A stretch of DNA of 25,454 bases from a virus. Shown here one piece after another: positions 14,230-21,818 of this stretch. The stretch is from positions 1-25,454 of IMG/VR virus record IMGVR_UViG_3300025828_000169, one strand, 5' to 3'. How positions within the stretch are numbered: the first letter of the stretch is position 1; every line of letters begins with the position of its first letter. The notes below the pieces were generated by a model. That model saw only the letters and a program-made list of their open reading frames with translations. It searched no databases and was not told the origin of the DNA. Both the position numbers and the translations under genes were made by a program.

Positions 14230-14446
14230 CTCTCCAGTCCTCCCCATGTATCTCAATCATCATCTTCTGTAAGTACCTAGCGTTCAGACTAGAGTACTTA
14301 CGCTGGCAGTCCAGACGGAACATTTCAGTTTCAAACTCTACTATGTGGTCTATCATGGCTTGCGTCTCTGGGTCCTCTGGAGGCCCTGAAAGCTCCCCAG
14401 AGTCCTCCCCAAAGTAACCCAACTCGTATTCGTCCTCGTACATCAT
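14219..14446 (-). CDS. Acidic hypothetical protein (75 aa)
   Basis: Starts MMYEDEYELGYFGEDSGEL and continues with PPEDPETQAMIDHIVEFETEMF and a C-terminal basic/aromatic helix (CQRKYSSLNARYLQKMMIEI). The N-terminal half is strongly acidic, like DNA-mimic or protein-binding phage products, but no motif proves this. The chosen ATG at 14446 overlaps the previous gene's stop (ATGA); longer alternatives upstream would read through the preceding gene. It overlaps the zinc-finger-like gene by 11 bases. Function unknown. Confidence 0.6.
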   Translation of the reverse strand: MMYEDEYELGYFGEDSGELSGPPEDPETQAMIDHIVEFETEMFRLDCQRKYSSLNARYLQKMMIEIHGEDWRDAL

Positions 14447-14598
14447 TTGTAAGCCCCCTGCATCCGTTGTATAAGCTCGTCTATCACCTTCTGCTCCTCC
14501 TCCTTCCACTCCTCTAGATCGTCTAGGCCTTCGTAATCCTCAGCTTCCAACTGGTCGTAGTAGTAGTCGTGTGCTTCTTCCCATGATTCTCTAGGCAT
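14443..14598 (-). CDS. Very acidic small hypothetical protein (51 aa)
   Basis: Starts MPRESWEEAHDYYYDQLEAE and continues DYEGLDDLEEWKEEEQKVIDELIQRM. It is almost entirely charged helix with a striking excess of Asp/Glu and several Tyr/Trp. The ATG (14598-14596) sits 8 bases inside the end of the membrane mini-protein gene (ATGCCTAG) and the stop overlaps the next ATG (ATGA), so it is a link in the coupled chain. Upstream Met codons in frame would force a large overlap and are rejected. The composition would suit a charge-mimic inhibitor; that is speculation. Confidence 0.55.
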   Translation of the reverse strand: MPRESWEEAHDYYYDQLEAEDYEGLDDLEEWKEEEQKVIDELIQRMQGAYK

Positions 14599-14737
14599 CG
14601 TCTGTATTCTCCTCTGTGAAGTCTTCGTGGTCCGGATCATATTCGTACACTGTGGGTCCAGTGCCGAACATAAAATCATACAGTATCTTCAATGTAACCC
14701 ATAGTGGCGCTGTAATCGCCCATAGAAAAAGTCTCAC
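14591..14737 (-). CDS. Membrane mini-protein with acidic tail (48 aa)
   Basis: GTG start at 14737-14735 with GGGGAGGA a few bases upstream. Residues 2-24 form one hydrophobic span (RLFLWAITAPLWVTLKILYDF), and residues 30-48 are an acidic tail (YEYDPDHEDFTEENTDDA). The start overlaps the preceding stop as GTGA. An in-frame ATG at 14782 would add 15 charged residues but lies inside the preceding gene and lacks a binding site. A single span plus acidic tail is the general shape of small phage inner-membrane proteins, such as holin-like or host-inhibitor peptides; no specific family is recognised. Confidence 0.6.
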   Translation of the reverse strand: MRLFLWAITAPLWVTLKILYDFMFGTGPTVYEYDPDHEDFTEENTDDA

Positions 14738-14817
14738 CTGTCCTCCCCTTTTATCACAATCCAGACGGATCCTAGTATACAAAACATCCAGAGTAAACCC
14801 AAGACCTCAGTCTCCAT
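14734..14817 (-). CDS. Membrane mini-protein (27 aa)
   Basis: ATG at 14817-14815, TGA at 14736-14734. The protein is METEVLGLLW followed by MFCILGSVWIVIKGEDR: essentially a single transmembrane helix with an acidic N-terminus and a short charged C-terminus. AGGAGG lies about five bases upstream, an excellent binding site that argues strongly for translation despite the tiny size. It overlaps the previous gene by 11 bases and the next by the GTGA junction. Function unknown. Confidence 0.55.
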   Translation of the reverse strand: METEVLGLLWMFCILGSVWIVIKGEDR

Positions 14818-14917
14818 CTCTCTCCCTCCTGTCAATGTAGACACACAGAGGCGCGAGTATAGCACAGGTGCTCAGTAGTAACAAGATGTCAAACCACGGT
14901 TGCCAGTTCTCTAGCAT
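14807..14917 (-). CDS. Membrane mini-protein (36 aa)
   Basis: ATG at 14917-14915, TGA at 14809-14807. It has an N-terminal MLENWQPWFD, a hydrophobic span ILLLLSTCAILAPLCVYI (residues 11-28) and a basic/acidic end DRRERDGD. The start is 4 bases after the previous stop. It is one of four consecutive genes each encoding one predicted membrane span. The C-terminal basic residues would place the tail in the cytoplasm by the positive-inside rule. Function unknown. Confidence 0.5.
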   Translation of the reverse strand: MLENWQPWFDILLLLSTCAILAPLCVYIDRRERDGD

Positions 14918-14921
14918 GTCT

Positions 14922-15059
14922 CTAGTCCTCCTCTTCTTCGGCCTTTTTCATCCGCTCTAAGTTCCTGTTGAACTCCTCTTGGTCTATGGTGAGCCACGAT
15001 ACAGCTATAATACCAGCCACCATAGCGACTAGGAGCCAGTCTACGTAGTCCCCTAGCAT
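14922..15059 (-). CDS. Membrane mini-protein with charged coiled tail (45 aa)
   Basis: ATG at 15059-15057, TAG at 14924-14922. Residues 6-23 are hydrophobic (VDWLLVAMVAGIIAVSWL), followed by a charged helical tail (DQEEFNRNLERMKKAEEEED). This small bitopic layout, with a charged C-terminal helix, recalls spanin or holin-type components, but there is no lipobox or other proof. It starts 3 bases after the 81-aa gene. A competing minus-strand reading frame over 14911-15117 lacks a gene-like composition and is rejected. Confidence 0.55.
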   Translation of the reverse strand: MLGDYVDWLLVAMVAGIIAVSWLTIDQEEFNRNLERMKKAEEEED

Positions 15060-15062
15060 GTC

Positions 15063-15308
15063 CTAGCGCCTCCCGCGGCCGTAAGCCGTGCTTCCGTGTC
15101 GTAGTCTGTCCCACCATCGCATAACACGCCAGAAGCGTCCACGGTTCCTCTCAGTGTCTAGGAAACTTAAGCGGTCCCGTAGGCCACAGAGTAGCCGTGA
15201 GTAATTGTTAATGGTGTACTCTGGGTACCTGAAGCCCTTTCGTGAGTCGTAGATGTCCCAGACGTGGCCCTCGTGGTTGTACCAGATTGTGTAGCGTCCG
15301 AAGTTCAT
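15063..15308 (-). CDS. Basic Trp/Arg-rich hypothetical protein (81 aa)
   Basis: Starts MNFGRYTIWYNHEGHVWDIY, continues with RYPEYTINNYSRLLCGLRDR and ends in a strongly basic, aromatic tail (FWRVMRWWDRLRHGS and TAYGRGRR). The first part looks like a short beta hairpin and the tail is likely to bind nucleic acid or membrane. The ATG overlaps the preceding stop (ATGA). No family is recognised; the positive charge contrasts with the acidic proteins encoded downstream in the same chain. Confidence 0.55.
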   Translation of the reverse strand: MNFGRYTIWYNHEGHVWDIYDSRKGFRYPEYTINNYSRLLCGLRDRLSFLDTERNRGRFWRVMRWWDRLRHGSTAYGRGRR

Positions 15309-15436
15309 TCTGTCTTCTCCTTCTCCTTCTCTTTACCACTATCAGCTACGACCTTGCTTAACTCCTTAAGAACATCACTGGGGTCGGTAATATTGTCGAG
15401 ACGTTTAGACGCTTCTATAATTTCTTCTAATGTCAT
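15305..15436 (-). CDS. Small charged helical protein (43 aa)
   Basis: ATG at 15436-15434, TGA at 15307-15305. It begins MTLEEIIEASKRLDNI, followed by TDPSDVLKELSKVVADS and a lysine/glutamate repeat tail KEKEKEKTE. This is a regular amphipathic helix pattern with a low-complexity end. Both ends use four-base overlaps (ATGA) with neighbours, which supports translation. Function unknown. Confidence 0.5.
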   Translation of the reverse strand: MTLEEIIEASKRLDNITDPSDVLKELSKVVADSGKEKEKEKTE

Positions 15437-15612
15437 GAGATCACCTCGTTGTTCTGTATGTCGTATGCTAGAGGCCCTGCCTGTTGATAGACTAAGTCTG
15501 CCAACTCTGGGTAGTCCTCCTCCAACTGCTCTAGCGCATCAAATGCGTCTAGGTCGCTATGGTAGACCGTGCGCTCTACTAGTGCTAGGTACTCTTGAAT
15601 TACGTTGTTCAT
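15433..15612 (-). CDS. Small acidic hypothetical protein (59 aa)
   Basis: Starts MNNVIQEYLALVERTVYHSD, continues LDAFDALEQLEEDYPELADLVYQQAG and ends YDIQNNEVIS. It is acidic and helical. The ATG at 15612-15610 is chosen over an upstream in-frame one because it overlaps the previous stop as ATGA, as throughout this chain; the upstream extension would read across the neighbouring gene. No family is recognised. Confidence 0.55.
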   Translation of the reverse strand: MNNVIQEYLALVERTVYHSDLDAFDALEQLEEDYPELADLVYQQAGPLAYDIQNNEVIS

Positions 15613-15848
15613 ACTGTAGCCCTCGCGTTGATGCTGTCCTGTGTCAGTGTGTCGCAGTAGTCCGCACCTCTGGACTTCAGCCACTGGTTGATATGTTTTG
15701 ACGTGGTGACACTCCAGAAGTCCTCCGTCTTGAAGTAGTTCCCGTCTGCGTCCTGTAGTGCAACGGGTGTCTCGTAGCTGAAGAACACAGTGGTTCCGTC
15801 TGTGAATTCAACCTCTGTTTTGTTACTGCCTAGCTGTCGTAGTTTCAT
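15609..15848 (-). CDS. Conserved-looking phage hypothetical protein (79 aa)
   Basis: Begins MKLRQLGSNKTEVEFTDGTT, then VFFSYETPVALQDADGNYFKT and WSVTTSKHINQWLKSRGA. The FSY-TPVA...Y-x-T...WSVTTSKHINxWL pattern is one I recall in many unrelated phages, with no known function. The first half is beta-rich; the second ends in a helix. A strong GGGAGGG binding site lies about eight bases before the ATG, so this gene probably recruits ribosomes for the overlapping genes that follow. It is the head of the relay of eleven small genes ending at 14038. Confidence 0.7.
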   Translation of the reverse strand: MKLRQLGSNKTEVEFTDGTTVFFSYETPVALQDADGNYFKTEDFWSVTTSKHINQWLKSRGADYCDTLTQDSINARATV

Positions 15849-15917
15849 GTCTTAAGCCCTCCCGTGGCTTGTGTGTTGACTCACTGCTGGACACTCTAGG
15901 GAATGCCCAGCGATTAG

Positions 15918-16019
15918 TCAACCCCTGTCTAAACTGTTTTTTCCCGCCTCGTAGCCTATCAGTGCGCCCATGCCCACCGATGTGGCTACGATGAAGAAGA
16001 ATACGAATAATGGTCCCAT
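15918..16019 (-). CDS. Membrane mini-protein (33 aa)
   Basis: ATG at 16019-16017, TGA at 15920-15918. MGPLFVFFFIVATSVGMGAL followed by IGYEAGKNSLDRG: one hydrophobic span with a glycine-zipper-like GxGALIG end and a short charged tail. AGGAGG five to six bases upstream is near-ideal. It begins 9 bases after the 81-aa gene that precedes it. It is separate from, but similar in build to, the membrane mini-proteins at 14591-15059. Function unknown. Confidence 0.6.
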   Translation of the reverse strand: MGPLFVFFFIVATSVGMGALIGYEAGKNSLDRG

Positions 16020-16028
16020 GTCTGCCTC

Positions 16029-16274
16029 CTATGCCGCGTATTGGCGGTAGTCGTCCCGCAAGTATCGCCTAGCGAGTGTGATTGTGGGTAGCTCGATTCC
16101 GTAGACGTCCGCAAGTTCTACAGCCGCCTCGTATGACCATGCACGATACCGGCGATAGTCGTCGCTAGTCTTCTCCGGATCGTCTACCGCATCACTTGCG
16201 ATGCTGTCCCATACCAAATACGTTGTCATAATCTCCGCGATGTTCTTCGCTGTGTCTCTGTCTAGTGTAGTCAT
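16029..16274 (-). CDS. Hypothetical protein (81 aa), first leftward early gene
   Basis: Start taken at ATG 16274 (MTTLDRDTAKNIAEIM); ATG 16289 would add five residues (MRIII) and longer forms reach 16373, but none has a clear binding site. The body is helical and Tyr/Arg/Asp-rich: SDDYRRYRAWSYEAAVELAD near the middle and RRYLRDDYRQYAA at the end. No family is recognised. It is the first gene left of the origin-like region, so it is likely the earliest leftward product. A Fur-box-like sequence (16275-16293) lies immediately before the start. Confidence 0.5.
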   Translation of the reverse strand: MTTLDRDTAKNIAEIMTTYLVWDSIASDAVDDPEKTSDDYRRYRAWSYEAAVELADVYGIELPTITLARRYLRDDYRQYAA

Positions 16275-16441
16275 GATAATGATTCTCATTTGGGGTGGCA
16301 TTGGGTCCCCGTCTCGCCATGTGTGTATGAAACTACAGATCAACCCAGATGTATATAGTAAATATTCACACATTTAGACTATTGACCGCTCGTGTTGTTC
16401 CGTGCTAGTCGCGTGTGTGCGCGTAATAAATAGATCGCGTA

Positions 16442-16631
16442 GCAACAATCGTGCCAACTTTATCAGCTCGTGGTGTAGCTCAAGGGGTCCAACATAAGTT
16501 CACACACTTGTCAACCCATGCAAACTCCATGCCAGTTTTACCCATGCAAATATCGTGCCAACTCTGGTTGCTACTACAGTTGGCCTCGTGTGTCAACCTA
16601 TGTTGACCCCATGCAAGAACCATGCCAACTC
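16442..16631 (+). repeat. Four iteron-like direct repeats (19 bp)
   Basis: Copies at 16442-16460, 16520-16538, 16546-16564 and 16613-16631 fit GCAAnnnYCRTGCCARYTY. GCAA and TGCCA are invariant; the three variable bases sit at fixed positions. Start-to-start spacing is 78, 26 and 67 bases. All lie in the same orientation. Such spaced direct repeats usually bind an initiator or packaging protein. Confidence 0.7.
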
Positions 16632-16669
16632 TTGGGGCTAACATAGGCTGAAACCCGTGTCAACCCGTG
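16509..16669 (+). repeat. Three copies of TGTCAACCYRTG plus an inverted copy
   Basis: TGTCAACCCATG (16509-16520), TGTCAACCTATG (16591-16602) and TGTCAACCCGTG (16658-16669). An inverted 8-base copy GGTTGACA lies at 16693-16700. The first and third are parts of a longer imperfect direct repeat beginning AACATA at 16491 and 16640. These interleave with the 19-base repeats, giving two binding-site families in one region. Confidence 0.6.
16592..16607. repeat. Perfect inverted repeat GTCAAC-ctat-GTTGAC
   Basis: Six-base arms around a four-base loop, formed where one 12-base repeat meets a reversed half copy. It may be a dimeric protein-binding site or a small cruciform/hairpin within the origin-like region. 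Confidence 0.6.
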
Positions 16670-16834
16670 GAAAAACTTGGGGCGGGGGGAGGGGTTGACA
16701 TGTGTTGTACTTTTGTAGTAGCACCTCAGACACAAAATAGGTCAAAATTAAGAAAATTACCCTTAAATTTAACTCGTGTAACCCGTTGTTTTTACTCATG
16801 TTTGTCCTACTACTGCTTTTCCCTCTAAAATAAC

Positions 16835-16863
16835 TTGACTTTTGTGTAAACTTATGGTATACT
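16835..16863 (+). promoter_or_regulatory. Sigma70-type promoter for the rightward packaging genes
   Basis: TTGACT (16835-16840), 17-base spacer, TATACT (16858-16863). The expected transcript start, about 7 bases downstream, leaves a leader of roughly 20 bases before the ATG at 16892, which has only a weak AGGGA binding site. It is placed between the origin-like repeats and the small terminase gene. Confidence 0.8.
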
Positions 16864-16891
16864 ATTGGCATAAACAGGGATAATTTTAGTT

Positions 16892-17281
16892 ATGACCACT
16901 GAAGTTAAAAAAAGAGGTCGTGGCAGACCCCGGAAGTCCGAAGTAGCCGCTGTAAAACCCGGTAACAAGGGTGTTGTAGGCCGACCAAAGGGTGACGCAG
17001 CGATAATTAATGAGTACAAGGCTAGGATGTTGGCTAGTCCTAAGTCTCGTAAGGTCCTAGAGACTATTTTTGATGCTGCTTTGGACGACGACCATAAGAA
17101 TCAGGCTGCTGCTTGGAAATTAGTTATGGACCGTATACTACCAGTGGGTGCTTTTGAGAAGGACGTAGTAAAAGACAACGGTAGGAACGCTATACAAATT
17201 AATATTACAGGTGTTGGTACTGCTGAAGTAACTACTCCTGACGATATTATAGAAGGAGAAGTAGTAGAAGATGACTCTTAA
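16892..17281 (+). CDS. Terminase small subunit candidate with AT-hook-like motifs (129 aa)
   Basis: The N-terminus is highly basic with two AT-hook-like motifs, KKRGRGRPRK (residues 6-15) and GVVGRPKGD (27-35), able to grip the DNA minor groove. A helical middle follows (NEYKARMLASPKSRKVLETI, NQAAAWKLVMDRILP) and then an acidic tail (DDIIEGEVVEDDS). This basic-helical-acidic layout, its size, and its place at the head of the packaging operon fit a small terminase subunit that recognises the packaging site, perhaps the repeats just upstream. The sequence alone does not prove it; a DNA-binding regulator is the alternative. It overlaps the endolysin gene by 11 bases. Confidence 0.6.
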   Translation: MTTEVKKRGRGRPRKSEVAAVKPGNKGVVGRPKGDAAIINEYKARMLASPKSRKVLETIFDAALDDDHKNQAAAWKLVMDRILPVGAFEKDVVKDNGRNAIQINITGVGTAEVTTPDDIIEGEVVEDDS

Positions 17282-17621
17282 GTACTTTACAAGAGAAGAA
17301 TTCGACTGTCAGGTTACTGGTACTAACAACATGGAACGAGAGTTCCTAGAGAAGTTAGACGAGTTGCGGGGCGTATGTGGCTTTCCCTTTGAGGTAACAA
17401 GTGGTTACCGTCATCCAACGTTGCACCCAATAGAAAAAAAGAAAGCAGTGCCGGGAACACATGCGCAGGGAATAGCGGCGGACATAAGAATAACAAACGC
17501 CGCTGACCGCTACACTATCGTGTCTAACGCAGTAAAGCTAGGTTTCACAGGCATAGGTATTGACGATGATTTTGTACATGTGGACACTAGGGGTACGACT
17601 CCAGTGATTTGGTTGTACTAA
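17271..17621 (+). CDS. Endolysin: M15-type D-Ala-D-Ala / L-Ala-D-Glu peptidase
   Basis: Cleaves peptide cross-links of peptidoglycan to lyse the host. Family features in this 116-aa protein: YFTREEFDCQ opening, SGYRHP (R47, substrate binding), zinc ligands H64 and D71 in GTHAQGIAADIR, and FVHVDTR with D100 and the third zinc ligand H103. The set H-x6-D...D-x2-H is that of the M15 (VanY/peptidase M15_3) fold. There is no signal peptide, so export would need a holin or a membrane mini-protein. It sits unusually between the small and large terminase genes; its stop overlaps the next start (TAATG). Confidence 0.85.
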   Translation: MTLKYFTREEFDCQVTGTNNMEREFLEKLDELRGVCGFPFEVTSGYRHPTLHPIEKKKAVPGTHAQGIAADIRITNAADRYTIVSNAVKLGFTGIGIDDDFVHVDTRGTTPVIWLY

Positions 17622-21584: not shown

Positions 21585-21818
21585 ATGCGAAAACTATTAG
21601 TAGCGGTAATGCTGTTGTCGTTACAGGCATCAGCTAATACCAAGATTCTCGTTGAGAAAGCAGATCAGCAGTACGTAGTAGTACCGGACTGTGTAGTATC
21701 TGAAGACGTAACTCAAGTATCACTACGGTGGCTTAGAGTAGGCGCACCAATATACATTAACCACCAAGGACGACAAGTCCGGTGTACAATTGAAGACTAC
21801 TACCAAGTAAGGAGTTAA
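21585..21818 (+). CDS. Putative exported small protein with signal peptide (77 aa)
   Basis: Residues 1-18 (MRKLLVAVMLLSLQASAN) form a classical Sec signal peptide: basic start, hydrophobic core and an ASA cleavage site before N18. The mature part (~60 aa) is beta-rich with two cysteines (VVVPDCVVSED and QVRCTIEDYYQ) that could form a disulfide in the periplasm. AGGAGA upstream is a good binding site. No family is recognised. An exported small protein in a virion-gene block could act in lysis timing, superinfection exclusion or envelope alteration; this is inference only. Confidence 0.6.
   Translation: MRKLLVAVMLLSLQASANTKILVEKADQQYVVVPDCVVSEDVTQVSLRWLRVGAPIYINHQGRQVRCTIEDYYQVRS

Follow-up and report, generated by a model that had tools for sequence, protein, structure and literature searches.

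Within a 25,454-base stretch of DNA from a single virus record (here called the window), we identified a modular, ordered cassette of mini-genes, each encoding a protein with a single hydrophobic helix, the parts of which are exchanged among related phages. One of its members, the 36-amino-acid (aa) protein C, is the near-fixed core of the cassette and is retained through replacement of the replication module. The window represents an uncultured marine phage from a lineage without a cultured isolate; DNA-level comparison of the window with isolate phages gave no match, and the capsid and portal proteins exhibited less than 35% identity to those of isolate phages. A capsid search in genomes, performed for host assignment, matched nothing but short, taxonomically mixed MAG contigs.

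Genome organization of the window

The leftward operon contains NrdJ, an exonuclease-like gene, PolA, a primase-helicase, SSB, and numerous small genes, while the rightward operon contains a probable small terminase, an M15 endolysin, TerL, the portal, and the capsid. Where a gene had no family match, its name is one that we presume on the basis of sequence appearance and general knowledge. The two operons diverge from an intergenic region (16374..16891) with degenerate 27-nt repeats, which is probably a promoter/control region; promoter-like matches within it were not above the chance level. Positions 16485-16720 within it have five degenerate copies of the 27-nt unit TGTCAACCCATGCAAACTCCATGCCAG together with inverted repeats and are a possible origin or operator region.

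Two other small genes of the window were characterized by family searches. A conserved 79-aa gene in the same operon as the mini-genes (15609..15848, minus strand) belongs to phrog_5643 (function unknown; E = 9e-28), homologs of which occur in cyanophages and enterobacterial myoviruses that are distant from the lineage of the window. In the late operon, a 77-aa protein (21585-21818) that probably carries a signal peptide had no match in family searches.

Identification of the mini-genes

The original prediction, made from the window alone, described four successive single-span membrane mini-proteins of 45, 36, 27, and 48 aa and a fifth of 33 aa, all of which we confirmed on the minus strand. 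The 33-aa gene (A33; ATG start; 16019-15918) lies upstream of the other four and encodes one helix followed by GYEAGKN. An 81-aa gene for a soluble protein (15063..15308, minus strand) directly precedes the four-gene run, which starts with the 45-aa gene B (ATG; 15059-14922), encoding one helix and a charged C-terminal tail. Next are C (ATG; 14917-14807), with the head MLENWQPWFD, one hydrophobic helix, and a charged tail of the YIDRRE type, and the 27-aa gene D1 (ATG; 14817-14734; METEVLGLLWMFCILGSVWIVIKGEDR). The run ends with the 48-aa gene D2 (GTG; 14737-14591), which occupies an exchange slot described below and encodes a short helix with an APLWV motif and an acidic tail. Directly downstream of the cassette, a 51-aa gene for a soluble acidic protein (14443..14598, minus strand) serves as a positional anchor. 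Genes overlap by 11 nt (C/D1), 4 nt (D1/D2), and 8 nt (D2 and the next gene). The AGGAGG ribosome-binding sites noted for the 27- and 33-aa genes are present, and the 36-aa gene has one too; the 45- and 48-aa genes have GGAGG. Each of the five proteins has one hydrophobic span, the weakest being the D2 span, which has a Kyte-Doolittle score of 1.4 (19 residues), contains a Lys, and is followed by a long acidic tail.

Since T-rich strands can yield very short open reading frames (ORFs) of such a type by chance, the five could in principle be hydrophobic ORFs of a biased sequence rather than genes. We applied a filter (a Shine-Dalgarno sequence, a length of 24 to 60 aa, and a hydrophobic span) to positions 14443-16400 and obtained five ORFs on the sense strand and none on the antisense strand; in 1,000 dinucleotide shuffles, the same filter gave a mean of 0.01 ORFs and a maximum of 1. 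For C, D1, D2, and a 35-aa relative, pN/pS was 0.24 to 0.32 in frame (C, 0.24; D1, 0.28; D2, 0.32) versus 0.88 to 3.6 in the other frames, and substitutions between relatives fell mostly at third codon positions. The dN/dS values of B (0.46) and A33 (0.24) are weak indications, with three sequences each. The chance explanation is refuted by the frame-specific selection, and we regard it as negligible. Because of this selection, the excess over the 0.01 ORFs expected, and conservation at the locus in dozens of contigs, the five mini-ORFs are real genes under purifying selection.

Distribution of the cassette in related phages

We sampled IMG/VR with 80 primase-anchored loci and three scans using the 36-, 27-, and 48-aa families, found the 51-aa anchor gene in 154 loci, and compared 79 distinct slots upstream of it. 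Dozens of IMG/VR contigs have the hydrophobic helices conserved at the same position, as the original prediction required, and the mini-genes, whose lengths are close to or under the cutoff of gene callers, are absent from annotated collections, as it had anticipated. The order of the members is fixed: A (33 to 36 aa; GYExG[KR]N), B (the 45-aa type), C (WQP), D1 (the 27-aa type), a variable D2, and the anchor. As a correction to the original prediction, four genes in a row are a trait of the small group to which the window belongs (e.g., L204, L095, and L172), and most relatives carry two or three members.

D1 was found at 37 IMG/VR loci and D2 at 11. Homologs of B occur in L024, L107, L048, L050, L095, and L172 and have the common motif AWLTID/SWLTID. 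Homologs of A33 occur in L001, L065, L136, L139, L144, and L164, and A33 is related by motif to a family of 35 to 36 aa (GYExGRN), which is a frequent first member of the cassette. Among the relatives, B, D2, and A33 are present or absent independently of one another.

The D2 position is an exchange slot. Three pairs of phages (L169/L205, L021/L166, and L204/L095) carry different D2 families even though their C genes are 96% identical, their anchors 92 to 94%, and their downstream DNA 93 to 95%. In format, the D2 proteins resemble one another weakly (prolines in the helix and an acidic end), and a D2 structure model gave a helix at low confidence. The content of the slot varies further, being sometimes a soluble protein and sometimes nothing. 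An obligate pairing of C with D2, which we also considered, is weakened by this variation, and C accordingly does not need D2. At four loci (L164, L144, L151, and L050), the occupant is a short soluble relative of the 81-aa gene (motif FTIWYNH); the 81-aa gene is therefore also mobile within the operon.

Conservation of C and its relationship with D1

We collected 64 distinct relatives of C from IMG/VR, with the head consensus M-x-E-x-W-Q-P-[WF]-[WF]-D-[VI]. E3 is conserved in 63 of the 64, and D10 and L14 are invariant (64/64); the search pattern comprised positions 3 to 9, so that invariance there is partly built in, while D10 and L14 lie outside it. A structure model of C consists of a single helix (residues 5 to 34; pLDDT, 85.5). 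There are no positive charges before the helix, while Arg and Lys follow it, and from these charge counts alone the topology is predicted to be N-out/C-in. C is kept in loci with a very divergent primase (L141 and L148 to L157; branches of >2 changes per site), in which it stands alone and ends in a different tail (TNDEE). One of them, L148, combines a TerL nearly identical to that of the window with a very divergent replication module, and the WQP gene is the only cassette member kept; the other loci of this set likewise have the divergent primase along with the WQP gene.

The C proteins of the cassette differ in their tails, and D1 follows the type. D1 accompanied C of the YID type in 28 of 28 slots, versus none of 31 slots with C of the IKG type. 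On the primase tree, the C type requires three changes, and D1 switches along in all three (sign test, p = 0.25, with only three independent switches). The window sits among IKG-type phages on this tree; hence, it most likely acquired the YID-type C together with D1. In sequence comparisons, the IKG-type tail scored 30.2 against D1 (40.6 for the IGADN variant) versus 21.6 against the YID-type tail, although the YID tail also had a high z value against D1 (7.0) in a composition-preserving shuffle. Since the tails are short hydrophobic helices, the likeness is suggestive and not proof. The simplest readings are that the IKG-type C may be a fusion of a C head with a D1 tail or that D1 may be a headless copy of C, and either would suggest that C and D1 work together.

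These patterns bear on the proposal that the mini-proteins form a hetero-oligomeric membrane complex. It is partly supported: C and D1 behave as a unit, given their co-occurrence and the fused-looking form, but a single four-part complex is unlikely because B, D2, and A33 are each gained and lost on their own. The variant in which such a complex is obligate was rejected, as there is independent variation of A, B, D1, and D2.

Lysis genes of the relatives

The endolysin of the window (17271..17621, plus strand) is of the M15 family (PF08291, E = 5.5e-8; phrog_894 endolysin, E = 1.5e-24), lies in the rightward operon, and lacks a signal sequence. The mini-proteins had been suggested as a holin for it, and a role as holin, pinholin, or antiholin would be consistent with their small hydrophobic helices and with the lack of any visible holin in the 25-kb contig. 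The near-complete relatives (34 to 37 kb), however, contain about 10 kb that are absent from the window contig. Their late membrane cluster comprises a 65-aa protein with a coiled coil and a C-terminal helix, a protein of 115 to 120 aa, and a protein in the holin position, the last in one of two forms: a 132-aa holin (GTA_holin_3TM; PF11351, E = 6e-21; phrog_3427, E = 3e-36) or a 114- to 124-aa phrog_2524 protein (e.g., L082 1665-2009, L088 12236-12580, and L090 2144-2515). All nine near-complete relatives have one of these late-operon proteins (GTA_holin_3TM in three and phrog_2524 in six) and never both; the window ends before that region. L094 (34 kb), which has the closest core genes among the near-complete relatives, is of the phrog_2524 type. 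On the basis of position, mutual exclusion, and a weak match to phrog_3427 (E = 0.0014), phrog_2524, labeled unknown, is probably a holin family.

The GTA_holin_3TM proteins resemble the mini-proteins in being small phage membrane proteins of the same genomes, but they are of about 130 aa and encoded in the late operon, and none of the mini-proteins matches them. Pfam and PHROG searches with the five mini-proteins gave no holin match; furthermore, the mini-genes lie in the opposite, replication-side operon, and the conservation of the C head is unlike that of a holin. The holin suggestion is disfavored, and we consider it highly improbable that the mini-proteins burst the cell. Failure to see a holin in a contig should not be taken to mean that there is none.

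Predicted functions of the cassette

The cassette shares the leftward operon with the genes for SSB, primase, PolA, and NrdJ and is separate from the late genes; the gene order suggests that it is expressed early. We tentatively favor, at somewhat less than even chances, the view that C/D1 is a specific modulator of a membrane protein. The cassette mini-proteins would be single-pass inner membrane proteins made together with the replication genes. C would place its acidic, Trp-rich head (ExWQP[WF][WF]D) on the outer side of the inner membrane, and head and helix may bind a specific membrane protein; D1 would contribute a second helix, and the IKG-type C would hold both functions in one chain. 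A short conserved head beside one helix, a combination that survives module replacement, points to a fixed partner of C and not to general membrane damage. The target would be a conserved membrane protein of the host (a transporter, translocon, protease, or respiratory subunit) with an activity that is altered during infection, and the swapped members (A, B, and D2) may tune the action of C/D1 or act against other phages or defenses. Cellular mini-proteins such as AcrZ and KdpF are single helices of 29 to 49 residues that bind a larger membrane protein, and C/D1 may act in a similar manner. Several D2 members share with AcrZ prolines in the helix, but the mini-proteins have no sequence match in PDB, and the likeness is one of resemblance only.

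Two other roles would be a better fit for the swapped members than for the core. In superinfection exclusion, early inner membrane mini-proteins would block DNA entry by related phages, with the swapped members setting specificity. Proteins of the T4 Imm type are small phage membrane proteins produced before the late genes. Imm itself blocks DNA entry (PMC11436027), which provides a precedent, and both the position in the replication operon and the fast turnover of D2 slot contents among phages with 92 to 96% identical flanks would be compatible with this role. We nevertheless consider exclusion rather unlikely: the most widespread member, C, is conserved and not variable, and neither Imm nor any other known exclusion protein showed sequence likeness to the mini-proteins. 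Imm is a larger protein than these. The gain, loss, and swapping of accessory genes in the replication operon would also be expected if the mini-proteins inhibited membrane-acting effectors of host defense and the accessory genes followed the defenses of the host. Such counter-defense is improbable in our estimate, since the core is strongly conserved and no link to a named defense was found.

Pfam, PHROGs, and PDB contained no match for the mini-protein families, and PDB profiles of C and D2 returned nothing significant. When C (in two forms), the 35-aa family, and a conserved 94-aa gene were used as queries against isolate phages, nothing relevant was returned; weak Salmonella matches (E of about 1) covered the hydrophobic stretch only. 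The nearest thing in kind is a sequence-unrelated pair in Rhizobium phage Pasto, gp24 and gp25 (39 and 37 aa), which are likewise adjacent single-helix proteins, annotated as N-out/C-in and encoded directly upstream of a primase/helicase. However, neither the ExWQP[WF][WF]D head nor the D1 pattern is present in them, and the phage itself encodes an RNA polymerase as well as a late holin of its own. No description of such a cassette was found in the literature, in which small phage proteins are a recognized but under-described class (PMC11323111).

Implications

Genes of 27 to 48 codons without library families are missed or ignored by standard annotation, and yet selection keeps one of them despite replacement of the replication module. 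It is possible, albeit doubtful as a whole, that the cassette constitutes an undescribed module, i.e., a one-chain IKG-type C or a YID-type C with D1, accompanied by a slot for the exchange of unrelated single-helix mini-proteins, that would target a conserved membrane protein of the host during replication. If the split/fused relationship is true, C and D1 would be a rare instance, open to direct testing, of two mini membrane proteins that function as a single one, with natural variants ready for the search for their target.
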